Below are positions 23,843 to 37,807 of a stretch of DNA of 64,000 nt, in pieces. The notes beneath the pieces are model-generated. The model was not told the DNA's origin. It saw only the letters and a program-made list of their open reading frames with translations, and did not search any database. Location of the stretch: assembly GCF_011799805.1 (NCBI RefSeq), contig NZ_WXUB01000001.1, positions 186,001 to 250,000 on the forward strand, given 5' to 3'. A program made the translations under genes and the position numbers. The stretch is from Maribellus sediminis. GTDB lineage: Bacteria; Bacteroidota; Bacteroidia; Bacteroidales; Prolixibacteraceae. The first letter of the stretch is position 1. Each line of letters starts with the position of its first letter.

Positions 23843-24541
23843 ATGGCGATGGGATATAAAAAAGAAACTTGCCTGAACTGTACCATCAAATCAAATGTGG
23901 TGTCTTCGCTTACTGAAAAGGAACTGGCCCGCCTCGAGACCGGTTGTCTTCAAAATGTATTTGAGAAAGGTGAACTGATATTCAAGGAAGGTATGCCGGC
24001 CAACCATATCGTTTACATTCGCGAAGGTTTTGTGAAACTCAGTAAAAAAGGAATAGGAGGAAAAGATTATATACTGAGTATTGCCAAGAAAGGTGCCTAT
24101 CTCGGAATCAATAACTTGAATAAAAAAACACGTTTATATTACACTTCGGCCATTGCGTTAACCACTACCGAGCTGTGCTTCATCGATATTGAACTGTTTG
24201 GAATGTTATTAAAAGAGAACGGCAAATTTGCCACCGAGGTGATCTATTATATTTTCGATGACGAAATGAATTATTTCGACCGCTTGGTAAATAACGTACA
24301 ACAACAGGTGCCGGGAAGACTGGCTAACACCTTGTTTTATTTCAAAAACCAGGTTTATGGTTCTAATCCTTTCAAGATGAACATTACGAAAGTTGAGCTT
24401 GCTTCGTTAATCGGCACTTCACGCGAAAGTGTAACACGCCTGTTAAAAGAGTTTCAGGAAGAAGGGATAATCCGGGCAGATAAAAATGCCATTACCATTC
24501 TCGACGAGAAAAAACTAAAGGAAATACAACAGAAAGGCTAG
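23843..24541 (+). CDS. Crp/Fnr family transcriptional regulator (A)
   Basis: 232 residues: an N-terminal cyclic-nucleotide-binding-fold domain (about 25-145; FEKGELIFKEGMPANHIVYI), a dimerisation helix, and a helix-turn-helix at about 185-215 (KVELASLIGTSRESVTRLLK, the Crp_2 type with E and S-V-R contacts). C10 and C13 form an N-terminal CxxC that could bind iron or sense redox, but only two Cys are present in that region. The cAMP phosphate-binding motif is not evident. A Crp-like palindrome lies upstream. It is tail-to-tail with a second such regulator, the two stops sharing the palindrome CTAG. Confidence 0.9.
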   Translation: MAMGYKKETCLNCTIKSNVVSSLTEKELARLETGCLQNVFEKGELIFKEGMPANHIVYIREGFVKLSKKGIGGKDYILSIAKKGAYLGINNLNKKTRLYYTSAIALTTTELCFIDIELFGMLLKENGKFATEVIYYIFDDEMNYFDRLVNNVQQQVPGRLANTLFYFKNQVYGSNPFKMNITKVELASLIGTSRESVTRLLKEFQEEGIIRADKNAITILDEKKLKEIQQKG

Positions 24542-25230
24542 CCTACCATGCTGAGGTGGCGTATTTTTTCGTAGTTCAATATGGATATTTCACTGCCTTT
24601 CATCTCGATAATTTTATCGCCAACAAAATCTTTTATTACCCTTGAAAGGCTTTCCTGAGACATGTTGGTAACGGCCGCCATTTCCTTTTTTGAAATGGGT
24701 ACTTTGAATTTTTTGCGTCGATAGATACGCAGACTCAGGCACAATAAAAGGTCGGCAAATCGTCCGTGCAACTGTTTCAGTGTGAGACAAGCTGTGCGGT
24801 CGTACCAGAATAATGATTCATCGCTTAGCTGCTTCATCAGACTTGCTGCGAAACCTGCGTTCTGATTGATAAAATCCTGAATAGTGCTTTTGTCGTGCAA
24901 GCAAACTTTTGTTTCGGTGTAGGCCTGCACCGAATATGGGTACAGGTTTTTACCAAAAAGTGCCTGCAAACCGAGCAATTTTCCTTTTCCTTCAATGGAT
25001 AGGATCATTTCTTCATGACCATTTTCACGATACAGTTTAACCAAACCCGTTTTCAGGTAAACCAGATGGCTGGCCATCACTCCCTGTTTAAAAATGGTTT
25101 CACCCTTTTTAAAAGTAATTTCTGCCCTGTTTCGGTTTATCTCGATTAATTGCTCAACAGTGAGTTCTTTGAATGGAAGAGACATACAGGCGCATCCGGT
25201 GCACTTTTGAATTAGTTTTGAATTTGGCAT
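24538..25230 (-). CDS. Crp/Fnr family transcriptional regulator (B)
   Basis: 230 residues: a sensor domain at about 20-140 and a helix-turn-helix with EMAAVTNMSQESLSRVIKDF. The N-terminus has three close Cys in KCTGCACM (10, 13, 15), as in redox-sensing members of the family. The ATG at 25230 was chosen over an in-frame TTG at 25263, which would add 11 residues of unlikely sequence. A perfect Fnr-type box lies 70 bp upstream, between this gene and the divergent rhodanese operon; control of both by this or a related regulator is inferred. Confidence 0.9.
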   Translation of the reverse strand: MPNSKLIQKCTGCACMSLPFKELTVEQLIEINRNRAEITFKKGETIFKQGVMASHLVYLKTGLVKLYRENGHEEMILSIEGKGKLLGLQALFGKNLYPYSVQAYTETKVCLHDKSTIQDFINQNAGFAASLMKQLSDESLFWYDRTACLTLKQLHGRFADLLLCLSLRIYRRKKFKVPISKKEMAAVTNMSQESLSRVIKDFVGDKIIEMKGSEISILNYEKIRHLSMVG

Positions 25231-25263
25231 TTTTAGCTCACTTAAGGGCACGAAGATAATCAA

Positions 25264-25591
25264 TTAGCACTTATAATTTTTATAACATCAATCATATTCT
25301 TGATATAGATCAAAAATAGTAATGAGTACGAAGGTAATTCACCTTGAGGCGCTTGAACCGGTTTTTGTCGTCTCAAATTGTCATGCATTCTATTTTTGAA
25401 ACGTCGGTTATGCGACTCAAATTTTACTTAAAGCAGGACATGAGAGAGGCAATTTTTTTATTGTTTTTGGTGCAAGTTATATGCTTGCCGAAAAAGAACT
25501 TCCCCTTAAATTTTAATACCCTTTTAATAAAACCGGGATCGCCTTTCCGGTTCACTGCAGAACTATTCAATAACCTATAATTCTATTAAAA
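25264..25591. other. Divergent regulatory region
   Basis: Holds the Fnr-type box (25300-25313), an additional half site ATCAA at 25287-25291, and a -7-like TATTTTTG at 25391-25398 towards the rhodanese operon. A 78-codon frame at 25344-25580 has no protein features and was not called. The leader to the rhodanese gene is long, about 190 bp. Confidence 0.5.
25300..25313. promoter_or_regulatory. Perfect Fnr-type box
   Basis: TTGATATAGATCAA, a perfect TTGAT-N4-ATCAA dyad. If TATCTTCG (minus strand, 25258-25251) is the -7 box of regulator B, the dyad is centred near -61. Confidence 0.65.
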
Positions 25592-26575
25592 ATGAAAAAG
25601 TACATTTTTTACACGCTTTTTTTAGCCCTCGTGGCTTCGATTTCTTTCACCGGATGTAAGTACGACGATCAGTGCGATTGTCCAGAAAATGGAGCAGATC
25701 CGTATGAAACATTAACATCGTATTTGGTTGAAAATGACATGGACCTCCCCGCTGTTTTAAGCTCGTGGATCACAGCACGTCCGGCAAGTGCCGATGAGGT
25801 TTCAACCTTTATTGCTACGTATGATATTTTCGATTTACGTGGTGAAACGGATTATGCCAACGGACATATTGAAGGTGCGGTAAACGTAACACTTGGTAAT
25901 TTGTTGGAAAAAGCAGCCAGTACAACAAAACCTATTCTTGCGGTTTGTTATACAGGGCAAACTGCTTCGCTTGCCGTTGTTGCACTTCGCTTAAGCGGAT
26001 ATGCTGATGCCAAGGTTTTAATGTGGGGAATGAGTGGATGGACTTCAACACTTAGCGGTCCGTGGTTAGCCAACTCTGGTAACGAAAACGGTGTAATTGG
26101 TGTTGGTAATGCCAACTGGACAAGTGATGCAGTTTCTTCCGATACATCTCACGATACTCCTGAACTTCTTGTTTCTGCGACCGACGGTGCCGGAATTCTT
26201 GAAGAACGCGTTGCAGCCTTACTTGAAAATGGCTTTAAAGGAGTTGCTTCATCAGCTGTTCTTGATGCTCCTGCCAGCTACATGATCAACAATTACTGGG
26301 CACTGGCTGATGTAGAACATTACGGACACATTACCGGAGCACACCGTATCAATCCGCTTTCAATTCAAAATGGTGAAATCGATTTATTAGATCCTGATAA
26401 ACAAATTTGTACTTACTGCTGGACAGGTCAGACTTCATCAATGATTACTGCTTATTTGAATGTATTGGGCTTTAACGCTGTTAGTTTGAAATTCGGAGCA
26501 AACAGCATGATTTATTCTGAATTAGAGAGCCACAAATTTGTTGCGCCAACAGTTGATTATCCTGTTGTAAAGTAA
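25592..26575 (+). CDS. Two-domain rhodanese lipoprotein (A)
   Basis: 327 residues. Lipobox SFTGC with the lipidated Cys at 22, so the protein is membrane-anchored outside the cytoplasm. Rhodanese domain 1 (about 70-160) has DLRGETDYANGHIEGA and the active loop CYTGQT (C119); domain 2 (about 225-310) has the loop CWTGQT (C286). Both loops keep the catalytic Cys, so both could carry persulfide, which is unusual because one domain is normally inactive. It is the paralogue of the lipoprotein at 34522. First gene of an operon with a porin (57-bp gap) and a secreted sulfurtransferase. Confidence 0.9.
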   Translation: MKKYIFYTLFLALVASISFTGCKYDDQCDCPENGADPYETLTSYLVENDMDLPAVLSSWITARPASADEVSTFIATYDIFDLRGETDYANGHIEGAVNVTLGNLLEKAASTTKPILAVCYTGQTASLAVVALRLSGYADAKVLMWGMSGWTSTLSGPWLANSGNENGVIGVGNANWTSDAVSSDTSHDTPELLVSATDGAGILEERVAALLENGFKGVASSAVLDAPASYMINNYWALADVEHYGHITGAHRINPLSIQNGEIDLLDPDKQICTYCWTGQTSSMITAYLNVLGFNAVSLKFGANSMIYSELESHKFVAPTVDYPVVK

Positions 26576-26632
26576 GCTGGCTCAATTGAGATCAACTTAT
26601 GAATCATTTTTCATTCATCTAAAAAGAAAATC

Positions 26633-27676
26633 ATGCGAAAGATATTATTTATAATTACCGCCGTTCTTTTTATTGGCTATACTGCCAATGCCCAGGGATG
26701 TGCAGAACCGGCATCGGAAGACGGTGTAAATGTGTTTGGATATTTACAGACTCAATACGATTACGGGTTTACGGAAGGTGATAACACTTCATCCTTTGGT
26801 TTTAACCGTGCACGAGTGGGTGTAATGGGCAATATCCCATACGATTTTAGTTACTATGTTTTACTCGAAACCAGTCCGTTTAAAAAAGACGGTCCAAAAG
26901 CTTATTTGCTCGATGCGTTTGTTACTTACTCGCGTTTCCCTTTTCTGAAGGTTAGTATGGGTTCGTTCAAATCGCCTTTCGGACAGGAATTGAGTACTCC
27001 GTGTAATGCGCTCTATACGATCAATCGATCAAAATTTGTGAACGAACTTACTGCTCCCGACCGCGATATGGGACTGATGTTACTGGGTGGAGCTGATACC
27101 ACTCTGTTTCAGTATTCGGTGGCATATATGAACGGAACCGGGTTACTGGTTGCCGATAAGGACAAATACAAAGACCTTGTTGGACGTTTGATCGTTCATC
27201 CGATCGACTGGTTTCAGTTTGCGGGTAGTTTCCGTTTAGGCAAATCCGTAAGCAGCGATGAAACTGTTGAAGATGCTGATGAAAGAAAACGTTTTGGAGC
27301 CGATTTCCAGATTGAAAAATTTGGATTCCTGGTTCAGGGCGAATACATCTGGGCCGAAGACAAAGGTTCGTACCTGGTTGGTGGCGGCTGTGGCGGCGAT
27401 CCTGAATTGGTTCAGGGTAGCGTTAAACGTCAGGGCCTTTCTATCATGGCACTTTATAATACACCCTGGAATCTGCAGCCCGTAATTAAATACGAAAATT
27501 ACGATGACGATATCGATTTTGACGGATACAACAACTACGAGCACGTTACCACAATTGGTTTCAACTATTTCTTCAACGAGTGGACTCGTCTGCAGGTGAA
27601 CTACGAATACAAGGCTGAGTGGGCAGGTGAGGTTGATAACGACATGTTAATGGTACAATTACAGGTGAAATTCTAA
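26633..27676 (+). CDS. OprP/OprO-like porin
   Basis: 347 residues with a signal peptide cut at ANA-QGC. The barrel opens with VFGYLQTQYDYGF and has FGFNRARVGVMGNIPYDFSY, LKVSMGSFKSPFGQEL and a closing aromatic strand LMVQLQVKF, typical of the phosphate-selective porin O/P family. Such porins pass anions. Placed between two periplasmic sulfurtransferases, it may admit thiosulfate or another sulfur oxyanion; this is inferred only. A Cys pair in the mature N-terminus and a GGGCGGD loop are atypical for porins. Confidence 0.85.
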   Translation: MRKILFIITAVLFIGYTANAQGCAEPASEDGVNVFGYLQTQYDYGFTEGDNTSSFGFNRARVGVMGNIPYDFSYYVLLETSPFKKDGPKAYLLDAFVTYSRFPFLKVSMGSFKSPFGQELSTPCNALYTINRSKFVNELTAPDRDMGLMLLGGADTTLFQYSVAYMNGTGLLVADKDKYKDLVGRLIVHPIDWFQFAGSFRLGKSVSSDETVEDADERKRFGADFQIEKFGFLVQGEYIWAEDKGSYLVGGGCGGDPELVQGSVKRQGLSIMALYNTPWNLQPVIKYENYDDDIDFDGYNNYEHVTTIGFNYFFNEWTRLQVNYEYKAEWAGEVDNDMLMVQLQVKF

Positions 27677-27696
27677 TTCTTCAAAAAATTTATACA

Positions 27697-28548
27697 ATGA
27701 AAACAAATAAGTTTTTTCTACTTGGATTCTTAATGCTGCTTGTTGCAGCAGTTTCAGCCCAGGATTTGATTTCAGAAAAAGATCTGGCAAAGATCTACAA
27801 AAATAACGACGTTGTTGTGGTTTGGGCCGGTGCAGCTGATGGTTACAAAGTACACATTACCGGATCGATAAGCCTTCCACATTCAACATTGTGCACCGAT
27901 CAGCCTGTTCGCAACCTGATCAAGTCGCCGCAGGAAATGGCGAAGATTTTGGGAGAACATGGTATATCGCCTGATAAAACGATCGTAGTTTACGATGAAG
28001 GATCGACAAAATATGCAGGCCGCATGTACTGGATGTTAAAGTATCTGGGAGCGCCTAATGTTAAAATGCTGGATGGTAACATGAAAGCATGGAAAGCCGG
28101 TCGCAAACCCATTACCGGTGCTCCGGGTAAAGCTGCTGCCACAACATTTACAGCAAAAGTTGATGCTACTCAACTGGCCAAAATGGATGAGGTTAAAAAA
28201 GCTGTTGATAATGCTTCTTATGTTATTGTTGATGCGCGTACTCCGGAAGAATATGCGGGAACAGCCGAAACCGAATTGGAACGGCCCGGTCATATTCCGA
28301 GCGCGGTAAATGTTAATTACGAAACTTTATCGGATGCCAAAGGCCTGTTAAAATCGAGCGATGAATTAACAGCAATGTTCAAATCAAAAGGTATTACAAA
28401 GGATAAAACCGTTATTGTATACTGCGAGACCAGTGTACGTGCCGGCGTAATTTACCTGGCATTAAAAGGACTTGGATACGAAAACGTAAAAGTATACGAT
28501 GGAGCTTATTTAGAATGGCAGTCAACTGCAGCTAACACTGTAGTTTAA
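27697..28548 (+). CDS. Secreted two-domain sulfurtransferase (SseA/TST-like)
   Basis: 283 residues with signal peptide 1-21. The N-terminal domain (about 25-135) is inactive, with YDEGST in place of the Cys loop at about 99. The C-terminal domain (about 165-275) has DARTPEEYAGTAETE and the active loop CETSVRAG (C243). This is the classical thiosulfate/3-mercaptopyruvate sulfurtransferase plan, one structural and one catalytic domain, here sent to the periplasm. It transfers sulfane sulfur from thiosulfate or mercaptopyruvate to a thiol or cyanide acceptor. Last gene of the operon, followed by a strong terminator. Confidence 0.9.
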   Translation: MKTNKFFLLGFLMLLVAAVSAQDLISEKDLAKIYKNNDVVVVWAGAADGYKVHITGSISLPHSTLCTDQPVRNLIKSPQEMAKILGEHGISPDKTIVVYDEGSTKYAGRMYWMLKYLGAPNVKMLDGNMKAWKAGRKPITGAPGKAAATTFTAKVDATQLAKMDEVKKAVDNASYVIVDARTPEEYAGTAETELERPGHIPSAVNVNYETLSDAKGLLKSSDELTAMFKSKGITKDKTVIVYCETSVRAGVIYLALKGLGYENVKVYDGAYLEWQSTAANTVV

Positions 28549-28567
28549 GCCTTTCACATGTCCTGAA

Positions 28568-28594
28568 CGCCCGGTATTTACCGGGCGTTTTTTT
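28568..28594 (+). terminator. Terminator of the rhodanese-porin operon
   Basis: CGCCCGGT pairs with ACCGGGCG around ATTT and is followed by seven T. It closes the three-gene operon. Confidence 0.9.
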
Positions 28595-28612
28595 ATGCTT
28601 TTATTTTGACAA

Positions 28613-28645
28613 TAAAAAAGCCACCCGCGATAATTGGATGGCTTT
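28613..28645 (-). terminator. Terminator for the minus-strand lipoprotein
   Basis: AAAGCCA (28617-28623) pairs with TGGCTTT (28639-28645); read on the minus strand the stem is followed by TTTTTATT. It sits 16 bp past the stop of the gene at 28661. Confidence 0.6.
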
Positions 28646-28660
28646 GGTGGTATTTACTTC

Positions 28661-29254
28661 TTACTTTTCAATCTGTATGCTGGTATCTAAATCAATTCCA
28701 GATCCCAGCTCAATTTTGTCCAATGTCTTCATTTGGATATTCGACGAATTCAATATTGAATTCAAATTATTTTCATCCACATCTGCCAGACTTAGGAAAT
28801 CAGATGGAACAACTACTACTCTGAAGGTTTGATTCAGTGTATAATCGTTTGGTAAGGTTGAAAAATCAACATCTCCGTCCAGAAAAACCGACATATCAAC
28901 AACGCGATCGTTAGAGATATCTCCGGTAAAATCGAAATTGTATACCAAAATAGCACCGGAATCAAAATAGGTGGTTTGCGGAAGTGGACGCCAGTAATCC
29001 AAACCATCTTCATTTTTCCACAAAATATAGGTTAAGATCACATCCGACTCGTAAGGATCGAATCCATTATCCTGAAAATTAAATAGGAGTTGATATCCAT
29101 TTGCATTGGTAAAATTACCGGTAAATTCAAAAGTAGTTCCAACAAAGTTGTAACCATCTTCTCCGGGAGGGCCAACCGGACCAACAGGCCCTTCGCATGC
29201 GCCCAGAATTAAGGCTGCTGCTGCGATTAGTAAAATGCTTGTAAGTTTTTTCAT
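28661..29254 (-). CDS. Lipoprotein with short collagen-like stretch
   Basis: 197 residues. Lipobox LILGAC, then a brief Gly-Pro run, EGPVGPVGPPGEDGYNFVG, and a beta-rich domain of about 165 residues with EFTGNFTNANGYQ and ILWKNEDGLDYWRPLP. The collagen-like run is only four repeats and acts as a spacer rather than a triple helix. Proteins of this make-up are common surface lipoproteins of unknown role in Bacteroidota. The gene lies between the sulfur operon and the oxidoreductase and has its own terminator. Confidence 0.75.
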   Translation of the reverse strand: MKKLTSILLIAAAALILGACEGPVGPVGPPGEDGYNFVGTTFEFTGNFTNANGYQLLFNFQDNGFDPYESDVILTYILWKNEDGLDYWRPLPQTTYFDSGAILVYNFDFTGDISNDRVVDMSVFLDGDVDFSTLPNDYTLNQTFRVVVVPSDFLSLADVDENNLNSILNSSNIQMKTLDKIELGSGIDLDTSIQIEK

Positions 29255-29314
29255 GACTCTGAATTTTTTGGTTATTGAATTGTTTTCAAATCGGTTTTAA
29301 ACAAGTATGGTGCC

Positions 29315-29343
29315 AAAAAAACCTTCGGCAATCGCCGAAGGTT
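29315..29343 (-). terminator. Terminator after the oxidoreductase gene
   Basis: AACCTTCGGC pairs perfectly with GCCGAAGGTT around AATC, with a U tract when read on the minus strand. Confidence 0.85.
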
Positions 29344-29367
29344 CAATTTATATCTGATTATTTTTGT

Positions 29368-30726
29368 TTAGTCAGCTGATCCCGGTACCGGAACTGTGGC
29401 TGTTTTTATATAACCAACATCACCCATAATATAGGTGTCAGGGCCAAGTTTCATATCCGAGTTCATCATTTCTTCCCAGGTAACTTCTTTACCTGTGTAA
29501 GCCGATACCCTACCCATAATTGCAGTAAGAACCGAATTGGCGGTAGCTTCAGCTTCATTGAAAGGAATATTCTGACGGATACAGGTAATCAGGTCTTTGT
29601 GCTCCTGAACGTATGGACTGGTTTCGTGATCTTCGTACGAGAACAGTTCGTTACCCTCCAAATCTACAATTTTCGATGTTCCCCCTTGTGAAGTAAAGGC
29701 TTTACCTTTGGTTCCGTGCATTACCTCGTTTACAGCATTTGTACAGCCATTAATCTGACGACAGGTACTTAAAACTTGTCTTCCGTCATCCAAATCGAAA
29801 CGAACTGCAAAGTTATCGTACTGGTCACCGGTGGGTCGACGCTGACGCGATCCAAATCCCAGGGCTTTTATCGGATGCTTGCCAAAAAACCAGTTGGCTA
29901 CATCGATATTGTGAACGTGTTGTTCAACAATGTGGTCGCCCGAAAGCCAGCACCAGTTTACCCAGTCACGGATCATCCACTCCATTTCGCTCCAGGCCGG
30001 ATTACTGTTACGGTACCATAACTGACCGCCATTCCAGTATACTTCGGCTGTTGTAAGCTTGCCAATGGCATTATTCGAGAGTTCTTTGTAAACGTTTATG
30101 TATTTATGCTGGTGACGGCGTTGTGTTCCGGTAACTACTTTCAGTCCCAGGTTATCAGCCATTTTTGCAGCAGCCAAAACTTGACGAACGCCTGCAGTAT
30201 CTACTGCCACAGGTTTTTCCATGAAAACGTGTTTTCTGGCTTTTACTGCAGCCTCGAATTGTTCTGGGCGAAATTTAGGCGGTGTGGCAAGAATAACGAT
30301 GTCTACACCCGAATCGATCACTTTTTCAAAAGCATCGAAACCAATGAAACAGTTTTCGTCCGGAATTTCCAATCCGTGTTCTTTTTTAATTCTATCGCGG
30401 CAACCGTCGATTCGGTCTTGAAAAACATCACCAAGAGCAGTTATGGTAACTGTTGATCCGCCAGCCTCGAGAAAGTTGTTGGCAGCACCTGTTCCACGTC
30501 CACCACAACCGATAACACCGGCTTTTAATACTGTTCCTTCCGGAACCTGATCGAGCAATGGCGGGAAGTTGTAATCTCTTTGTTTCCAGTCGTAAATAGC
30601 ACTGCTTCCGGCAGAGCTATCGCCTGAAGTACACGATGTTAACGGGCCAAATCCAATGGCTCCGGCGGCTCCTATTGCAGCAGCTCCGCCTAAAAATTTT
30701 CTTCTTGAAAATTGACTTTCACTCAT
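29368..30726 (-). CDS. Tat-exported Gfo/Idh/MocA family oxidoreductase
   Basis: 452 residues. The signal SRRKFLGGAAAIGAAGAIGF is a twin-arginine type, so the protein is exported folded, with its NAD(P) cofactor. The Rossmann domain starts LKAGVIGCGGRGTGAANNFL; the catalytic region has MEKPVAVDTAGV with the conserved EKP. The C-terminal alpha/beta domain holds VEQHVHNIDVANWF. Family members oxidise sugars, inositols or glycosides. It is 39 bp downstream of the NapC-SUMF1 gene on the same strand, so the two are probably co-transcribed; a functional link is only suggested by this. Confidence 0.9.
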   Translation of the reverse strand: MSESQFSRRKFLGGAAAIGAAGAIGFGPLTSCTSGDSSAGSSAIYDWKQRDYNFPPLLDQVPEGTVLKAGVIGCGGRGTGAANNFLEAGGSTVTITALGDVFQDRIDGCRDRIKKEHGLEIPDENCFIGFDAFEKVIDSGVDIVILATPPKFRPEQFEAAVKARKHVFMEKPVAVDTAGVRQVLAAAKMADNLGLKVVTGTQRRHQHKYINVYKELSNNAIGKLTTAEVYWNGGQLWYRNSNPAWSEMEWMIRDWVNWCWLSGDHIVEQHVHNIDVANWFFGKHPIKALGFGSRQRRPTGDQYDNFAVRFDLDDGRQVLSTCRQINGCTNAVNEVMHGTKGKAFTSQGGTSKIVDLEGNELFSYEDHETSPYVQEHKDLITCIRQNIPFNEAEATANSVLTAIMGRVSAYTGKEVTWEEMMNSDMKLGPDTYIMGDVGYIKTATVPVPGSAD

Positions 30727-30765
30727 AATGTTTATGTTTTAGTTGAATTAGGATTTTAAATGTAC

Positions 30766-32298
30766 CTATTTTTTCCCTGTTTTCTCATCGAATTCGCAAA
30801 CTACTCTAAAACTCATGTAGTTGCAGTCGGATAACCACCAGATACTTTTAGGAATCTGCGGGTCGGTTTTCATCCAGGCTTCCGATTGAGTGTGATCACG
30901 TGCGGCTGATCGAACCTCGCCGGCTGCACTTTTAAAGGTACCACCGCGAATAACTCTTTCAGTTCCCATTGCCGGTCCCTTAGGATCGGTAGCTCCGTCG
31001 CTTAATTGTGTGTAGGCGTCTTCGGCGTACCAGTCAAGGCAATATTCGGCGGCGTTACCCAGCATATTTTTCAAACCAAACGGATTGGCTTCCACATCTT
31101 CGGGTACACCTGTTTTTAATCCGCTGTTTTTTTCATAGATCACGTAGCTGTTGATCAGCTCGTTGCTCTTACCGAAAAGATTTCCTAAAAATCCTTTTTC
31201 GGCGAAATCTTTTGGATCTCCTTCAAAGAAATAAGGTGTTTCGGTGCCGCCTCGCGCTGCATATTCCCATTCGGCCTCGGTGGGTAATCGATAGGTTTTA
31301 CCGGTTACCTGCGATAACCACTTGCAGTAAGTTTCAGCCGAATGATAACTCATCGTTATTGCAGGGCGGTCTCCCATACCCCAGTTCTGATCGGGTTGTC
31401 CGTAAGGTGGCGTAGGTCCTGTAATGGCATCAACTTCACCTTGCAAGCGGGAGCCTTCTGTATCGGTTGAACGGCCTTCGGCAGCTGTGGCTCCGTAGAA
31501 AGCAAGGTATTCATTCCAGCTAACTTCTATTTCAGCCATAAAGAACGGACTCAAATTCACCGTTTTTTGCGGACCTTCATCAGCTTCGCGATATTGTTCT
31601 TTTTCAGGGCTTCCTATTTTAAAACTTCCTCCCGGAATGGCTTTCATATTAAATGAAATGGTGGTTCCCGGAATCTGCTCAGTAAAATCTTCCAGTGCAC
31701 TTACTGCAGTCGGTTCAGTAAATTTCTCTAAGTTCTCGTTTCCGGTACTTCCAAATTCAACATTTTTGGCGTGAAGTGCATTCGGATCGTAATGTCCCAC
31801 ATTCAGGTGACAGTTAATACAACGCAACTCATCTTCGTGCTGCGTATAGTATAAGTGAGCATCCTGTCCTTTACGGTTAAGCGTGATCGGGAACAGGTTT
31901 GAATGGCATTTTACGCACGACGCTTTAAACACATGGTGTTGTGCCTGGTCTAGACTTGATTTGGCCTCCCAGTTAAAATCAGCCGAATCTTTGAAAAAGA
32001 AACCATAGGCATCGCGTGCCGAAGCCTTTATTTTTTCTTTTAAATAACCTTCTCCTTTGGGGGGAAGATGACAGTCAACACAGCCAATTTTAATACCGAC
32101 ACGGGTATCGTAGTGAACGGATAACTTCCAGGAATCGGTAACGTGCGGATGAACATGGCACATTTCGCATGATTCAGGAGTTGATGTGGCTTCAATTGCT
32201 TTATTCGAATAAATGGCTGCAAGCAGCCCAATGACAAAGCCAATAAATAATACTAGTAATAGTTTTTCGCGTAGAAATTTTACAAAACGGCGTAGCAT
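30766..32298 (-). CDS. Four-haem NapC/NirT-type cytochrome fused to SUMF1 domain
   Basis: 510 residues. One N-terminal anchor helix (about 12-30), then four CxxCH haem sites: CEMCH 44-48, CVDCH 73-77, CVKCH 128-132, CINCH 160-164, as in NapC/NirT quinol dehydrogenases. From about 215 a SUMF1/FGE-like domain begins (MKAIPGGSFKIGSPEKEQYR, PTEAEWEYAARGG, NMLGNAAEYCLDWY, RVIRGGTFKS). The Cys pair that formylglycine-generating enzymes use is absent: the region after RGGTF reads KSAAGEVRSAARD. So it is not a sulfatase activator by that mechanism. A periplasmic electron-transfer or binding role is inferred. Confidence 0.88.
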   Translation of the reverse strand: MLRRFVKFLREKLLLVLFIGFVIGLLAAIYSNKAIEATSTPESCEMCHVHPHVTDSWKLSVHYDTRVGIKIGCVDCHLPPKGEGYLKEKIKASARDAYGFFFKDSADFNWEAKSSLDQAQHHVFKASCVKCHSNLFPITLNRKGQDAHLYYTQHEDELRCINCHLNVGHYDPNALHAKNVEFGSTGNENLEKFTEPTAVSALEDFTEQIPGTTISFNMKAIPGGSFKIGSPEKEQYREADEGPQKTVNLSPFFMAEIEVSWNEYLAFYGATAAEGRSTDTEGSRLQGEVDAITGPTPPYGQPDQNWGMGDRPAITMSYHSAETYCKWLSQVTGKTYRLPTEAEWEYAARGGTETPYFFEGDPKDFAEKGFLGNLFGKSNELINSYVIYEKNSGLKTGVPEDVEANPFGLKNMLGNAAEYCLDWYAEDAYTQLSDGATDPKGPAMGTERVIRGGTFKSAAGEVRSAARDHTQSEAWMKTDPQIPKSIWWLSDCNYMSFRVVCEFDEKTGKK

Positions 32299-32615
32299 AC
32301 ACGTGGTCGTTTATTAGGTTCATGAATGATTTAGGTCTCAAATTTAATAATTTTCTTAAGTGATTTTAGTGTTTTATAACTATTTAAATTCGAAAAATAA
32401 AGCCAAAAGGTTGCCCGGATACGACAACCTTGGGAGAGTTTTAAAATTACAGGAATACAAGAGAGATAAGGGAAATATCTCGATATGCAAGATAGCTTGA
32501 TTGCTTTTATAACGGATTATGTCAAGATTATGAGTGCATTAAACGTTTGTTAATGCATTAAGCATAAGTTAATTAATCCTTAAGTCTGTCTCGGTAATTT
32601 GTTGTAAATTACGGT
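32299..32615. other. Divergent intergenic region
   Basis: 317 bp with no gene. On the minus strand TAAATTTG (32346-32339) is a good -7 box for the cytochrome gene, 41 bp before its start. A short dyad AAGGTTG/CAACCTT lies at 32408-32432 without a T tract. Confidence 0.45.
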
Positions 32616-33317
32616 ATGATTAACCTGCACCAAAACATTACCGATATTCTGGAACTTGTGTTTCCAACTCTTTGCATTACCTGCGGTGAACGGCTTATAA
32701 CCCAGGAAAAACTGGTGTGTTTTAATTGCTGGAACGATCTTCCGGTAACTCATTTTCATTTAGAGCCCGAAAATAAGGTCGCTCAACTTTTCTGGGGCCG
32801 CGTAACTATTGAAAATGCAGCTTCTTATTTTTCATACCGAAAAGGGAGTAAGTACCAGCAGCTCATTCATTTTACAAAATACAAAGGCTTAAAAGAGCTT
32901 GGTTATGAAACAGGAAGAAAATATGGATTCGTTCTTCGGGAATCGTCTGCTTTTTGTGCTGCTGATTTTGTTGTGCCGGTGCCGCTACATCCTAAAAAAG
33001 AGAAGAAGCGTGGATACAATCAATGCAAATGGATAGCAGAAGGTATTGCTGCATCGATGGATAAGAAAGTTGTTGCGGATAATTTGTTCAGAAAAACTTA
33101 CACAAGCACTCAAACACGAAAAAACCGCTACGAGCGCTGGCAAAATGTGGAAGGTATTTTTGGAATCCACCGGCCCGAAGAATTTGAAAATAAACACCTG
33201 CTTTTGGTTGACGATGTGGTAACCACGGGCTCAACATTGGAAGCCTGCGCTTTCGAGATTCTTAAAATAAAGAATACAAAAGTGAGTATCGCTACTCTTG
33301 CTTTTGCCGATTTCTGA
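32616..33317 (+). CDS. ComF family protein
   Basis: 233 residues. An N-terminal zinc-ribbon (C20, C23, C35, C38) is followed by a phosphoribosyltransferase-fold domain with FVVPVPLHPKKEKKRGYNQC and the PRPP-binding loop LLLVDDVVTTGSTLEAC (about 190-206). ComF proteins are associated with DNA uptake in competent bacteria; many non-competent species keep them for unknown reasons. The gene sits by itself between two sulfur-linked units and has no evident link to them. Confidence 0.92.
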   Translation: MINLHQNITDILELVFPTLCITCGERLITQEKLVCFNCWNDLPVTHFHLEPENKVAQLFWGRVTIENAASYFSYRKGSKYQQLIHFTKYKGLKELGYETGRKYGFVLRESSAFCAADFVVPVPLHPKKEKKRGYNQCKWIAEGIAASMDKKVVADNLFRKTYTSTQTRKNRYERWQNVEGIFGIHRPEEFENKHLLLVDDVVTTGSTLEACAFEILKIKNTKVSIATLAFADF

Positions 33318-33454
33318 TCCGGATTTTCACATTGGCAGAAAAGCATTGTATTTATTGACATAACTTCTCCGAAAATCCCTAAACAATGTCTTGCTTCAAT
33401 CTGTTAAAGCAACAGTATGAACGCGATTTAATCATCAAAAAAAAGTATAGAATA

Positions 33455-34507
33455 ATGAACATTAAAAATTTACTATTGATTATGCTGGTTGTGATTGGTT
33501 TTACGGCCTGTAACCAAAAACCGGCAGGCAATGAAGACTCAAACGTGAAGTATTACAGGCAGTTGTTATTTAGTGAAACTCCATGGGATTTGGAACGCGG
33601 TTCTCATGAAATTTCGGCTGACGAAGCTCAAAAAGTGAATAATTATAAATTCACCTGGAACGACAACGGAACCCTGGCTTCAGTGGAATATAACCGTAAC
33701 GGCGTGTTGCTTGGATATTCGAATCTGCGTGCTGCTAAAATAACTTACACATACGAAGGAGACAAACAAGTTAAAAAATTCTTTAATGAGGATGGTGAGC
33801 AAATAGAAAGCGGTGGTACTTATACCCAGGAATATACACTCGATGATTCGGGAATGCGTGTTGCCTTGCGTTTTCTTGATAAAGATGGAAACCCGGTTGA
33901 AAACAGAAACAACATTCACAATTATGTGTGGTCGAAACTTGACAACGGAATGATTCGCGAACTACGTTACAACCTGGCAAAAGAAGAAACCATTATGAAT
34001 CCGTTTTGCCCGTTTTACGAGTTGCGCTTTAGTTACAACGACAAGGGTTATGTAACCCGAATGGCAAATTACGAAGCCGACACTTTATACGATTGCACAG
34101 CCGAGAATTGTGGCGATGTGGGCGTTTCTTACTTTCTGTTCGAAAATAATGACAAAGGCGATTTGCTAACGTTTTCGGTACACAGCACCACCGGCCAGTT
34201 ATCGAATTTGTACTGGGGCTGGGCAAAACGAAGCAATACAGTTGATGAAAACGGAAACCTTGTAAAAATGGTGATTTACGACCAGGATGATGAATTGCTT
34301 GGTGGTAAAGGAATACCTGTTACCGAAAACGAATACAACGAGCACGGAGCTTTGGTGAAAAGTATTTCGAAAGATGGCGACGGAAATGTAGTTAACAACC
34401 CGAACAGCGGAGTTGCCATTGTTGAATACAAGTACGACGATGAGGGACGACGTGTTGAAACCCTTCGTTACGACAAAGAAATGAACCCTGTAGAAAGTAA
34501 TAGTTAA
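33455..34507 (+). CDS. Lipoprotein with YD/RHS-like repeats
   Basis: 350 residues from the ATG at 33455, which gives a clean lipoprotein signal (lipobox VIGFTAC); the frame extends 23 codons upstream without one. The mature part repeats a short YD-like unit: FSYNDKGYVTRMANYEADTL, VTENEYNEHGALVKSIS, YKYDDEGRRVETLRYDKE. Such repeats form beta-sheets in RHS and wall-associated proteins. The enzyme function, if any, is not recognisable. It ends 14 bp before the second rhodanese lipoprotein and is likely in one transcript with it. Confidence 0.75.
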   Translation: MNIKNLLLIMLVVIGFTACNQKPAGNEDSNVKYYRQLLFSETPWDLERGSHEISADEAQKVNNYKFTWNDNGTLASVEYNRNGVLLGYSNLRAAKITYTYEGDKQVKKFFNEDGEQIESGGTYTQEYTLDDSGMRVALRFLDKDGNPVENRNNIHNYVWSKLDNGMIRELRYNLAKEETIMNPFCPFYELRFSYNDKGYVTRMANYEADTLYDCTAENCGDVGVSYFLFENNDKGDLLTFSVHSTTGQLSNLYWGWAKRSNTVDENGNLVKMVIYDQDDELLGGKGIPVTENEYNEHGALVKSISKDGDGNVVNNPNSGVAIVEYKYDDEGRRVETLRYDKEMNPVESNS

Positions 34508-34521
34508 GTATTTACGATATT

Positions 34522-35565
34522 ATGATTCACTTTAAACCGATTTTGAACTTTTTTACGCTCTCATTAGTTGTTCTGCTGCTATCCTGTTCAGGAGGGCAAA
34601 AAAAGGTGGAACAGGCAGATTCCGGCGTTGAAGCGTCGACCCCAAAAGTTGAGATAAACAGCGAAGCCAAATTATTGCTGAAAACTTTAAGTGAAATGGG
34701 CGATTATGCCAACAGCCGTAATTTTCCTTCGCTTATAAAGCCTTCCGCAGTATTTGAAGAGCTGGATGGCAATATACAGATCATCGATTTGCGAAGTGAA
34801 GATGCCTATGACGACGGACACATAAAAGGCGCTGTCCAGGTTAGTTTTTCTGATCTTCCCGCTTATTTTTCCAACGATATCAAACCATTTGAATACGACA
34901 AGATTGTGATGGTTTGTTACAGTGGGCAAATAGCCAGCTATGCTACCTCGTTATTGCGCCTGGCAGGTTACGGGAACGTTTATGCCATGCGCTGGGGAAT
35001 GAGCGCCTGGAATAAATATTTTGCTGAAGATTCTTGGCTCGATAATGTTTCATCGGAATTTCAGGAACAACTGGAAACTGCGGAACATGATAAAGCAGCT
35101 GTTACCGATTTGCCAAAACTGAATACCGGAAAAACAAGCGGCGATGAGATTTTGCAGGTTCGCATCGATTCACTGTTTGCTGCAGGATACTCCGAAGCGC
35201 TCATCCATGCCGACGATGTTTTTGAAGATCCGGCGCATTATTACACCATAAATTACGACCGGAAAGACAAGTACGAATCGGGGCATATTCCCGGAGCAGT
35301 TCGTTATAAACCGGGTGGCACGCTCGGTATTGTTTCCGAAATGCAGACCATCCCAACCGATAAAGAGGTAGTGGTTTACTGTAATACCGGGCATAATTCA
35401 GGTTTTGCTACGGCATATTTGCGCTTGTTTGGTTACGATGCCAAAACCCTCACTTTTGGGAACAATGCATTTATGTACGATAAAATGAAGGAGGAAGAAA
35501 GTGCGCTTTCCTGGCTTCCGTTTACCGAAGCCGAAATACACGATTATCCATACGTTAGCAACTAA
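34522..35565 (+). CDS. Two-domain rhodanese lipoprotein (B)
   Basis: 347 residues, lipobox LLLSC with Cys at 22. Domain 1 (about 70-165) has IIDLRSEDAYDDGHIKGA and the loop CYSGQI (C132); domain 2 (about 220-320) has ESGHIPGAVR and the loop CNTGHN (C287). It is a clear paralogue of the lipoprotein at 25592: domain 1 shares the GMSAW/GMSGW block after the loop and domain 2 ends with the same FGNNAFMY/FGANSMIY block. Both catalytic Cys remain. It converges with the YeeE operon. Confidence 0.9.
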   Translation: MIHFKPILNFFTLSLVVLLLSCSGGQKKVEQADSGVEASTPKVEINSEAKLLLKTLSEMGDYANSRNFPSLIKPSAVFEELDGNIQIIDLRSEDAYDDGHIKGAVQVSFSDLPAYFSNDIKPFEYDKIVMVCYSGQIASYATSLLRLAGYGNVYAMRWGMSAWNKYFAEDSWLDNVSSEFQEQLETAEHDKAAVTDLPKLNTGKTSGDEILQVRIDSLFAAGYSEALIHADDVFEDPAHYYTINYDRKDKYESGHIPGAVRYKPGGTLGIVSEMQTIPTDKEVVVYCNTGHNSGFATAYLRLFGYDAKTLTFGNNAFMYDKMKEEESALSWLPFTEAEIHDYPYVSN

Positions 35566-35586
35566 GAAAAGTAGTTCGAAGATATT

Positions 35587-36024
35587 TTATTCCGGCCTGA
35601 TCGTTGGATCGGGCCGGAATTTATAATTTAGGACTTCCGGATTTTCTTCTTCCGAAAGGATAAAAACCGAATCGAAACCAAGCTGATTTAAAATCACCCA
35701 AGCCTTCGAACTTGTTGAAATATCTTTTGAATAAAGCAAAACAGCTCCTTTCAATTCCGCCAGTTTTTCCTTGTTCTCCTTTTGAGTTAGTTCGTTGAAC
35801 GGGATGTAAACTGAATTATTGAAGCGCCGGTCTTCGTCAAATTCAATTATGGTATAATCACCATTTATATTACTAAGTTCCTGCACCGAAACTGTATTTT
35901 GTTGCGCCGCTTTCAATGCATCATTTACGTTTCTTTTAAACAGGTTCGGATTAAAAGTTTGCACTAAAACCAGTACAACTATTAGTAGCAGAAATGCTAT
36001 TATCCAACTTAATTTTCTAATCAT
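35587..36024 (-). CDS. Membrane-anchored rhodanese-fold protein without catalytic Cys
   Basis: 145 residues: one N-terminal membrane helix (about 5-22), then a reduced rhodanese-like domain with EFDEDRRFNNSVYIPFNELT and the loop position LLYSKDISTSS, where the catalytic Cys is Ser (S99). It is the last gene of the YeeE operon. The sequence is more divergent than the other rhodaneses here; the fold assignment rests on the D-R-x-x-N-N-S-x-Y-I-P pattern and the helix after the loop. It could bind rather than transfer sulfur, or help the transporter. The last codons form a GC-rich hairpin. Confidence 0.6.
   Translation of the reverse strand: MIRKLSWIIAFLLLIVVLVLVQTFNPNLFKRNVNDALKAAQQNTVSVQELSNINGDYTIIEFDEDRRFNNSVYIPFNELTQKENKEKLAELKGAVLLYSKDISTSSKAWVILNQLGFDSVFILSEEENPEVLNYKFRPDPTIRPE
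35590..35620. terminator. Hairpin between convergent genes, possible terminator
   Basis: TTCCGGCCTGATC pairs with GATCGGGCCGGAA (one G-U) around GTTG. It overlaps the last codons of the minus-strand gene. The A/T tracts beside it are short, so termination efficiency is doubtful. Confidence 0.45.
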
Positions 36025-36035
36025 CTTTTTCGATT

Positions 36036-36647
36036 TTATTCACAACCGCCATCCAGCTGCGATTCTTCCAGTCGCCTGGCTTCAAGGTATTGCATTTTTA
36101 AACTATCTGGCAAACTGTTAATCTCAGTGAAGGTTCTGCGTGCCTTGTACCGGTTCTCAAACAGCGCATTCTCGCGTGGCGTAATGCGTTCGCCTTCAAA
36201 TTTACTGAGCATAACGAGTTTGTACCATTCATTCAAACCACCTTTCATAACAAACGAATTTTTATATCCCAGCCCGGTGGCGATTGTCCAGGCTAAGTTG
36301 GCTGTTTCGTTGCCATTACTGTAATAAATGTTGCGTACTTTTTTTTGATTAAGGTAACCTTCCCAGTTCGGATTCAGCAGGTCATCAAAAGGAATATTTA
36401 TCGATCCGGGAATGTTGCTTTTCATGTATTCTACTTCGCTTCTCAGATCGATCAATTGAACGGTGGTATCTTCATTATTCATAAAACGGGCCACTTCATC
36501 CACTGTAAAATACATGTCGCTGGCAGCTGCTAACTCAACAAGTTCGCCTGGTTTAACCTTGAAGGTTTTTGCGGCATTAAAAGGCAGAAATGCGAGGATA
36601 AAACCAACTCCCACCAGTAAAACCGATATTTTTATTCGTGCATTCAT
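36036..36647 (-). CDS. Membrane-anchored rhodanese-like protein with C-terminal GGC tail
   Basis: 203 residues from the ATG at 36647; a longer frame to 36710 overlaps the upstream gene. One signal anchor (about 7-22), a rhodanese domain at about 45-150 (VQLIDLRSEVEYMKSNIPGS, ATGLGYKNSFVMKGG), then a charged helical tail. The active loop is YYSNGNETA: the catalytic Cys is Ser (S110). The only Cys is C202, in the last residues DGGCE. This recalls the GGCGG swinging arm of SoxY, which carries sulfur. The tail as a sulfur carrier is an inference. It belongs to the YeeE operon, 7 bp after the second YeeE gene. Confidence 0.78.
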   Translation of the reverse strand: MNARIKISVLLVGVGFILAFLPFNAAKTFKVKPGELVELAAASDMYFTVDEVARFMNNEDTTVQLIDLRSEVEYMKSNIPGSINIPFDDLLNPNWEGYLNQKKVRNIYYSNGNETANLAWTIATGLGYKNSFVMKGGLNEWYKLVMLSKFEGERITPRENALFENRYKARRTFTEINSLPDSLKMQYLEARRLEESQLDGGCE

Positions 36648-36654
36648 TTTCAAA

Positions 36655-37257
36655 TTAAATTTCGGAAGTGATGTCGGGACGTGCATATTTTTTCTCGGCC
36701 ATTTCTGCAAGCCAGAACATGATTATCGCTGCAACAATCAGCAGAAAAGTAAAAACACCCGGAGACACACCCATCCACTCATCAATTCGTACCGGACCTT
36801 TGTAATTGGCGCCTGCCAGTGTTTGTATCATCGGGTAAGTTTCGGCAAAAACAAAAGCGCCTGCCAGCCCGCCAAAAAGAAAAAGCAAGGCATCAATCTT
36901 TCCAATCGACAGGGCGCTGATACCTGTTCCGGGGCAAAATCCGCCCATTATAAATCCGGCTCCCATAATTACTCCGCCAACCAGTGTTGCAGTTATGTAA
37001 TACGGATTTACGTACACCATATTCAGGTTAAGCAAGCCAAAATAGCTGAGCAACTGCGAACCTGCCAGCGCTACGATGGCAGCTGTAAAGAATACTTTTA
37101 AAACAGTAGTGTCGTAGCCGTAAAACATACCGGCAAGTTTTCGGCTCGAAGAAAAACCAGCCTGTTCCAGGGCAAAGCCAAAGCCAATGCCAATTAGAAA
37201 GCCAATGCCCAGATTCAGCCATTGAGGAAGTTCGTTAAGTACAGTAATCGGTCCCAT
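36655..37257 (-). CDS. YeeE/YedE family sulfur transporter, half 1
   Basis: 200 residues of membrane protein from the ATG at 37257. Conserved YeeE blocks: GFGFALEQAGFSSSRKLAGM and VGGVIMGAGFIMGGFCPGTG with C108. In YeeE, such GxxCxG Cys residues line the path and pass thiosulfate by transient bonds. In Bacteroidota the transporter is usually two half-size genes; this one pairs with the gene at 37298. The substrate is probably thiosulfate or a related sulfur species. The inner-membrane partner YeeD/TusA is missing here; two rhodanese-like proteins follow instead. Confidence 0.88.
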   Translation of the reverse strand: MGPITVLNELPQWLNLGIGFLIGIGFGFALEQAGFSSSRKLAGMFYGYDTTVLKVFFTAAIVALAGSQLLSYFGLLNLNMVYVNPYYITATLVGGVIMGAGFIMGGFCPGTGISALSIGKIDALLFLFGGLAGAFVFAETYPMIQTLAGANYKGPVRIDEWMGVSPGVFTFLLIVAAIIMFWLAEMAEKKYARPDITSEI

Positions 37258-37297
37258 AATTAAAGATTGATTTATTGAAGGATTGATGGACTGAAGA

Positions 37298-37807
37298 TTA
37301 GATCCAAAGCTTTCTGAAAAACCACGCAAAAATGTAGGCCGAACCAAAAATGCCGATCATGGTCATAAATCCGGCTACTGAAAGGACGGCCATTCCTGAA
37401 AGTGCTGCTCCGCTTGTACAGCCGCGTGCCAGTTGTGCTCCGTAAACAAAAAACAAGCCGCCTAAAAAAGCGAAAAACAATCGCTTCCCGTTTGTTATGT
37501 TGGGCGATTTTTCAATTTTGAATTTTAGGCGACCGGACAAGGCCCCCGAAATAAATCCACCGAGAAACATTCCCAGCACCTCAAGTGCCAGCCAGTTTTT
37601 CAAGGGATTCTCCCCGTTTTCGAAATATTTCCGGTAATACGACGATTCCATTGCATGTTCGTGGTCGACTGCTTCAACGGCAGCAACAACAGCATATTTC
37701 AATCCGCCACTTGCTCCCAGTCCGCGCCCCGAAAAAAACATGGCGCTCAATAGTACCATTCCGAGCAACACACCGGCAAGGTATGGGTTCATGTATTTTC
37801 TTTTCAT
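37298..37807 (-). CDS. YeeE/YedE family sulfur transporter, half 2
   Basis: 169 residues. TM-rich, with GVLLGMVLLSAMFFSGRGLG near the N-terminus, LGMFLGGFISGALSG in the middle and the conserved YGAQLARGCTSGAALSG (C130). It has the second conserved Cys block of the split YeeE/YedE pair. First gene of the operon; the next gene starts 40 bp later. An extracytoplasmic loop of about 35 charged residues lies between helices 1 and 2. Confidence 0.88.
   Translation of the reverse strand: MKRKYMNPYLAGVLLGMVLLSAMFFSGRGLGASGGLKYAVVAAVEAVDHEHAMESSYYRKYFENGENPLKNWLALEVLGMFLGGFISGALSGRLKFKIEKSPNITNGKRLFFAFLGGLFFVYGAQLARGCTSGAALSGMAVLSVAGFMTMIGIFGSAYIFAWFFRKLWI

Follow-up and report, generated by a model that had tools for sequence, protein, structure and literature searches.

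The 64,000-nucleotide stretch of Maribellus sediminis DNA analysed here (the window; RefSeq assembly GCF_011799805.1, contig NZ_WXUB01000001.1, positions 186,001 to 250,000 of the forward strand, from a 5.6-Mb genome of 99.96% completeness) carries, at window positions 23843-37807, an island of rhodanese, porin and split YeeE/YedE genes that may serve the anaerobic acquisition of sulfane sulfur. The initial annotation of this island had named five rhodanese-fold proteins (two of them paralogous lipoproteins), an anion-type porin, a split YeeE/YedE transporter, two Crp/Fnr regulators and a multihaem protein; all of the corresponding open reading frames (ORFs) are intact and in place, and family searches bear out the assignments, the match of the fifth rhodanese-fold protein being weak. 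The island splits into two modules, M1 (25592-28548) and M2 (37807-34522). Its protein families are already known; what appears to be new are tailed pseudo-rhodaneses and a cysteine porin, of which no account was noticed in the literature searched, a body of text with most subscription journals and bioRxiv preprints outside its scope.

M1 consists of three genes on the forward strand. The first (25592..26575) encodes RhdLP1, a tandem rhodanese lipoprotein (79.4 bits in two stretches, against a Pfam Rhodanese cut-off of 22.2 bits) with the loops CYTGQT (C119) and CWTGQT (C276) and a lipobox cysteine, C22, followed by KYDDQ. The second (26633..27676) encodes an OprP-like porin of the Porin_O_P family (41.1 bits, cut-off 20.9) whose profile retrieves the OprP structure 2o4v at 8.9e-13, and which bears three cysteines: Cys23, within AQGC just past the presumed signal peptide (codon 26699..26701), Cys124, within STPCN (codon 27002..27004), and Cys253, within GGGCGG (codon 27389..27391). 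The third (27697..28548) encodes an SseA-like tandem rhodanese (119.4 bits) with an apparent signal peptide, no loop cysteine in its first domain and C243 in its second. The export and anchor signals of the island proteins were assigned by eye, the sole match returned by a tool being the RhdLP1 lipobox, at a sub-threshold 14.8 of 20 bits.

M2 opens on the reverse strand (37807-35587) with two genes matching opposite halves of PF04143, namely YeeN (37298..37807; the C-terminal half of YeeE/YedE, PmpA-like, PF04143 positions 170-309) and YeeC (36655..37257, with a likely start at ATG 37257; the N-terminal half, PmpB-like, positions 10-176). Each half has one invariant cysteine, in RGCTSG (25/25 YeeN proteins) and GGFCPG (22/22 YeeC proteins), respectively. 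RhdA (36036..36647, reverse strand, likely start ATG 36647; 58.5 bits) combines an N-terminal hydrophobic stretch with a rhodanese fold whose loop, YYSNGNET, has Ser at the place of the catalytic cysteine, and it terminates in DGGCE, with the Cys202 codon at 36042..36044. Rhodanese is the only Pfam family that matches RhdA at E<=0.1, with no SoxY family among the matches, and the RhdA profile finds 6mxv, 1yt8 and other rhodaneses, including chain 1qxn (E 4.2e-4), which we take to be Wolinella Sud. The fifth rhodanese-fold protein, pRhdB (35587..36024, reverse strand), has an N-terminal hydrophobic stretch and no cysteine at all, and at 18.1 bits falls below the cut-off that the other four exceed. 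RhdLP2 (34522..35565, forward strand; 101 bits), a second tandem rhodanese lipoprotein with C132 and C287 and a paralogue of RhdLP1 (36% identity over residues 75-314), is convergent with these genes in the window, and was assigned to M2 on the basis of its co-directional position 3' of RhdA in many relatives. Catalytic cysteines are retained in RhdLP1, RhdLP2 and the SseA-like protein; judged by their sequences, RhdA and pRhdB cannot be ordinary rhodaneses, because both lack the catalytic cysteine. The route originally proposed, from porin to YeeE, is accordingly kept in one part and altered in another: the porin and rhodaneses fit entry of an anion and its processing outside, but RhdA and pRhdB do not stand as sulfurtransferases.

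The islands of relatives were compared in 80 named loci, the best 80 of at least 532 relatives from at least 587 stretches matching RhdLP1 (which is present by construction), among which six are from Marinifilum and many stop at contig ends. A further 40 stretches (L066-L105) comprised 38 chosen from RhdLP- or RhdA-type matches plus two of the own genome; some of their contigs overlap named loci, and each protein was counted once. Genes in the loci were labelled with custom profiles at E<=1e-5. Within the 80 named loci the porin lies at most three ORFs downstream of RhdLP1 in 73 and the SseA-like gene at most five in 63, together forming an M1 core, around which the partners vary: YedE-404 occurs in 22 loci (14 with HdrA), an octahaem cytochrome in 16, HdrA in 15 and MoA with NrfD in 14. 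The only PDB sequence match of the octahaem cytochrome at E<=1e-5 is 1sp3 (2.2e-125), presumably the Shewanella octahaem tetrathionate reductase, and in a same-genus genome (G176, L078) such a cytochrome lies with a cytochrome b561 upstream of M1. YedE accompanied by TusA and/or DsrE, FlpD, HdrA and HdrC surrounds M1 in L119, L123, L125, L126, L127, L151, L156, L169 and L180, whose record titles name Bacteroidales, Marinilabiliales, Neomarinimicrobiota and KSB1; YedE, TusA and DsrE are all present in 7/80 named loci.

M2 has a comparable setting. A Yee gene lies at most three genes from RhdA in 25/28 loci, two of the three misses being at a locus edge, and MoA and NrfD share a stretch with YeeN and YeeC in 19/25, the window and five others lacking them. 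M1, reductase and M2 genes occur together in L117, L132, L172 and L179, and partly in L130, which ends within YeeN, while M1 and M2 lie within 20 kb of each other in L075 and L082. Each module is conserved in relatives and coupled there to sulfur-redox genes. The window is close to Draconibacterium (its porin has 77-79% identity to three porins of that genus, L152, L163 and L166), and in D. mangrovi (L163) and an uncultured Draconibacterium (L166) the order of labelled genes equals that of the window: Crp, Crp, RhdLP1, porin, SseA-like, h373, RhdLP2, RhdA. Since both module layouts recur in relatives, the arrangement is more than chance, and the conserved association that the initial annotation had proposed to look for across genomes held. 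The h373 gene itself (33386-34507, forward strand) encodes a lipoprotein-like protein with repeats visible by eye, and precedes RhdLP2, immediately or with one ORF in between, in the window, L088, L089, L090, L163 and L166.

RhdLP-type proteins of both kinds (E<=1e-20) occur in 57/198 genomes of the order and RhdA-type proteins (E<=1e-12) in 76/198. Of 296 genomes drawn from across the phylum, only the own genome and one more yielded the three-cysteine porin. Record titles among the matches listed also point to members scattered beyond Bacteroidota (Neomarinimicrobiota, Krumholzibacteriota, Calditrichaeota, Cloacimonadota, KSB1, Delongbacteria and others). In the source genome itself, a second split-YeeE/rhodanese operon on contig C7 (L086) adjoins a PsrABC-like set and encodes two tailed rhodaneses with nearly identical tails; the best PDB match of its MoA is 2vpw (6.8e-189), labelled as thiosulfate reductase, which we take to be the Thermus polysulfide reductase. 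The statement that the island has no Phs or TusA gene can be extended on one side and must be tempered on the other: Phs is absent from the island, and TusA was not found in the whole genome at E<=0.001 (control search positive in 11/14), but the PsrABC-like set lies elsewhere in the genome. One DsrE-family gene is present, at a distance, on contig C5. Genome-wide searches for SoxY and for an octahaem cytochrome gave no match; their controls likewise matched nowhere, so that both are uninformative on absence.

RhdA is unusual in its C-terminal tail. Among 67 distinct RhdA homologues (those of 170-280 residues among 72 labelled proteins), the catalytic place is held by Ser in 41, Gly in 12, Ala in 6, His in 3, Cys in 3 and other residues in 2, whereas a cysteine within the last five residues is present in 64/67 and the sequence GGC in 58/67; in 61/67 the tail cysteine is present and the catalytic one gone. 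The five proteins excluded by length are four short pRhdB-like ones without tail cysteine, the window's included, and one of 282 residues with GGC; over all 72, the tail cysteine is found in 65. In the 19 proteins for which a domain-end pattern matched, it lies 60-83 residues past the domain. By sequence, then, the RhdA family has mostly lost its catalytic cysteine and keeps a carrier-like tail cysteine, and annotating RhdA-type genes as sulfurtransferases is probably wrong. A related protein, Rhd1, is a rhodanese lipoprotein encoded upstream of RhdLP1 in relatives, with a tail cysteine in 62/70 and a catalytic cysteine in 52/70; several Rhd1 proteins terminate exactly in GGCGG.

Such tails are confined to rhodaneses in the loci examined. 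L106-L185 contain 1200 unique ORFs; an ending in GGC or GSC followed by at most three residues is found in 57, each of them an Rhd1 or RhdA. Among the other ORFs of an earlier locus set, 7/591 have such an ending, namely six RhdLP2 and one YeeC (L082) with a frame continuing into an RhdA-like match. This last gene (L082 2921-4147) is a YeeC half that runs on into an RhdA-like part with a GGC tail. The three rhodanese proteins of the source genome that lie outside YeeE and cassette loci have no GGC tail, and the idea that the tail is a general trait of the genome's rhodaneses was rejected. Between paralogues of one locus (28 non-independent pairs from 13 loci, range 0.15 to 1.0) the tails are 58% identical and the bodies 27%, as compared with 35% for tails of different loci (1100 pairs). 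A pair of paralogues in L179 has the same tail of 14 residues although 7/14 codons differ, and these synonymous differences argue against recent gene conversion as the source of the match. The matching tails suggest shared selection, as would be expected if both tails dock with the same partner.

The porin is unusual as well. Cassette porins have Cys23 in 80/81, Cys124 in 80/81, Cys253 in 78/81 and all three in 78/81; the full set is lacking in those of L137 and L158 (no Cys253) and in L113_6, a second, cysteine-free porin upstream of a Crp gene. In an alignment with OprP (2o4v), C124 is paired with Ser125 and the invariant R132 with Arg133; both OprP residues, S125 and R133, are listed as belonging to its two central phosphate sites (PMC5877670). 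Asp94 of OprP, considered as a conserved site residue, was dropped; the conserved Asp of the porin aligns with Glu95. A topology of 16 strands, counted by hand back from the C-terminal Phe, would put C23 on the periplasmic side at the N-terminus, C124 within the constriction loop and C253 in a probable extracellular loop. Thirty control Porin_O_P barrels from other genomes average 0.93 cysteines after residue 25 (none in 14/30, three in 4/30), and 0/30 have one at any of the three places. A phylum-wide search with the porin profile (E<=1e-30) matched 22/296 genomes and yielded 21 porins beyond that of the window; only L227 adjoins RhdLP1, and it has all three cysteines, while the remaining 20 lack all three and show no RhdLP1 within the ~1.5-kb flanks examined. 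The three porin cysteines track with the cassette, and the notion that cysteine-bearing barrels of this kind are ordinary was rejected on the strength of these 30 controls and 21 out-of-sample homologues.

The cysteines of the M1 rhodaneses are also well kept, with the RhdLP1 lipobox cysteine present in 79/79 homologues, its first and second catalytic cysteines in 78/79 and 79/79, and C243 of the SseA-like protein in 71/72. The optimal export signal of Capnocytophaga surface lipoproteins is C-X-K-(D/E)2-X, and other acidic signals are described for Bacteroides and Flavobacterium (Lauber et al., PMC5080379). At least two acidic residues occupy places 2-5 after the lipobox cysteine in 66/79 RhdLP1, 4/17 RhdLP2 and 5/67 Rhd1 proteins, and Lys or Arg stands first after it in 60/79 RhdLP1; the window's C-KYDDQ has the acidic pair, its Lys being one place early relative to the published motif. 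Because an acidic N-terminus marks most RhdLP1 and few RhdLP2 or Rhd1 proteins, exposure of RhdLP1 on the outer surface is the likelier reading. The surface sulfurtransferase of the initial annotation is thus suggested by the acidic residues (66/79), but not by the strict motif C-x-K-(D/E)2, which is absent from the window RhdLP1 and rare elsewhere (12/79 RhdLP1, 3/17 RhdLP2, 0/67 Rhd1).

Upstream of M1 lie two Crp/Fnr-type regulator genes, both assigned by Pfam: regulator A (23843..24541, forward strand; cNMP_binding and HTH_Crp_2 above cut-off) and CrpB (24538..25263, reverse strand), which is divergent from M1; a Crp gene is present in 49/80 named loci. Between CrpB and M1 lies a perfect FNR-type box, TTGAT-N4-ATCAA (25300..25313, forward strand), and the module is followed by a terminator-like hairpin on its 3' side (28565..28590, forward strand). 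Perfect FNR-type boxes number 2 in the 64-kb window versus 0.23 expected, and such a box occurs in 10/48 Crp/cassette intergenic regions (15 kb, window included) versus 21 across all 1.279 Mb of loci and window, which would be consistent with Fnr-type control of the cassette. The second perfect box of the window is at 57066-57079.

Our reading, to which we assign a probability of roughly 55%, is that the two modules of the island together form a system for the anaerobic acquisition of sulfane sulfur. At the outer membrane, the OprP-like porin of M1 would admit thiosulfate, tetrathionate or polysulfide as the sulfur anion, with RhdLP1, probably surface-exposed, acting outside and the SseA-like rhodanese inside to transfer or trim sulfane sulfur. 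At the inner membrane, RhdA would serve as a tethered sulfur carrier, a rhodanese fold without catalytic cysteine whose GGC tail, ~60 residues past the domain, could take up sulfane sulfur and present it to the split, PmpAB-like YeeE pair or to the PsrABC-like reductases of relatives; the charging of this tail may fall to RhdLP2. Gene linkage supports sulfur; the substrate, the direction of flow and any relay between cysteines we infer. According to Li et al. (2024, PMC11582611), thiosulfate's second sulfur enters the cytoplasm by unknown means. For the path of sulfane sulfur from the exterior of a Gram-negative cell to reductases in the periplasm and to YeeE-type transporters, the cassette provides concrete candidates at each step, down to single candidate residues (RhdA C202 and porin C23, C124 and C253). 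A covalent relay across both membranes, in which sulfur would pass from RhdLP1 to porin Cys253, to Cys124 at the anion constriction, to Cys23 facing the periplasm, on to the rhodaneses and their GGC tails and finally to YeeE cysteines or Psr/Otr-type reductases, is a tentative and rather doubtful extension; if true, it would represent an outer-membrane counterpart of YeeE together with a class of carriers that converged with SoxY. That sulfur moves from the cysteine of SoxY along those of the transporter has been called conceivable (PMC11582611).

Wolinella Sud, a rhodanese of the periplasm, passes sulfur on to polysulfide reductase (PsrABC) and uses its rhodanese loop cysteine, which RhdA lacks. 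Other known systems resemble parts of the island. SoxYZ is likewise periplasmic, carries its cysteine in a C-terminal GGC comparable to the DGGCE of RhdA, and has been proposed as a feeder of YeeE-family proteins (PMC6067878; PMC11582611), but RhdA has a rhodanese fold, appears membrane-anchored and adjoins YeeE and reductase genes rather than sox genes. PmpA and PmpB are two half-YeeE proteins with one conserved cysteine each (PMC11582611), whereas YeeN and YeeC adjoin tailed pseudo-rhodaneses and, often, PsrABC-like genes. In Deferribacter, a porin and a rhodanese near a Ttr cluster have been suggested to bring polysulfide into the periplasm, although the portion of that account available to us makes no mention of a conserved cassette, porin cysteines or a tailed rhodanese (PMC6896113). 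Some relatives carry M1 within YedE/TusA/DsrE/Hdr clusters reminiscent of the YTD cluster (YedE, TusA, DsrE), the complete form of which is reported only from Desulfobacterota and Nitrospirota among the phyla studied (PMC12998232); the window's genome differs in having no TusA.

Several observations weigh against an acquisition system of this kind. Neither module of the window adjoins a reductase, the PsrABC-like set beside a YeeE operon being on contig C7, and the lack of TusA leaves the cytoplasmic acceptor without a candidate. The window's M1 has no tailed Rhd1, pRhdB and its short relatives have no tail cysteine, and some tail pairs within a locus resemble each other no more than chance. 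In 28/80 named loci no sulfur partner (YedE-404, octahaem cytochrome, MoA with NrfD, or HdrA) is present, in some because the contig ends; the FNR-type box is limited to the 10 of 48 intergenic regions given above, and the strict surface-export motif is rare. From the literature, direct transfer between cysteines in TsuA, which lie ~7 A apart, has been doubted (Li et al., PMC11582611), and Caldithrix abyssi, in which psr/phs genes lie close to genes for sulfurtransferases, did not respire sulfur compounds (PMC5317091).

The invariant cysteines might instead be structural, a disulfide pinning the constriction loop of the porin and the GGC tails docking or anchoring to a partner or metal without carrying sulfur. 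Invariance is by itself no proof of redox chemistry, and many tails are Lys-rich and alike within one operon, as a docking tag would be; the porin cysteines, however, are odd in number, one lying in the Gly-rich GGGCGG and one near the N-terminus, the tail is confined in the loci examined to rhodaneses in sulfur-gene neighbourhoods, and SoxY likewise terminates in GGCGG (PMC6067878). We consider a purely structural role unlikely. Outward flow, with the cassette exporting periplasmic sulfane sulfur or polysulfide for detoxification or sulfur deposition, would be compatible with the bidirectional nature of porins and the toxicity of persulfides, both matters of general knowledge, but coupling to YeeE-type uptake proteins and periplasmic reductases better fits inflow of an electron acceptor, and export appears distinctly improbable.

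Selenite or tellurite handling by a Bacteroidota version of the Geobacter ExtH-ExtI system is more improbable still. That system likewise places a rhodanese gene beside a gene for a phosphate-porin relative (PMC5877670), and the NCBIfam models of both proteins find a match in M1, but far under the family cut-offs: the porin scores 56.7 of 150 bits with ExtI, the SseA-like protein 69.9 of 200 bits with ExtH. ExtI has one cysteine (PMC5877670) as against three in the cassette porin. ExtH-ExtI is further set apart by its selenite phenotype, its other neighbours and a linked ext cytochrome cluster, which was not found in the island; in relatives it is PsrABC-like, octahaem tetrathionate-reductase-like and YedE/TusA/Hdr genes that lie nearby, and on scores, cysteine count and neighbours the ExtHI identity was rejected. 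Least probable of all is a plain porin with ordinary rhodaneses in thiosulfate or cyanide housekeeping, which would accord with the catalytic cysteines of RhdLP1, RhdLP2 and the SseA-like protein yet leaves unexplained both the tail with lost catalytic cysteine in 61/67 RhdA and the three porin cysteines that track the cassette.

Among the remaining genes, the multihaem protein named in the initial annotation (30766-32298, reverse strand) has a NapC/NirT domain with four CXXCH motifs fused, in an unusual-looking combination, to an FGE/sulfatase-modifying-factor-like domain (Pfam), and it is the only multihaem gene in the island. Just 3' of M1, a gene at 28661-29254 (reverse strand) encodes a small protein resembling a lipoprotein and containing the collagen-like stretch GPVGPVGPP; the same-genus genome (L078) has a homologue in the same post-cassette place. 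Two NrfD-type genes, perhaps belonging to an alternative complex III, lie just past the window end (G000:C5:252241 and 256852).

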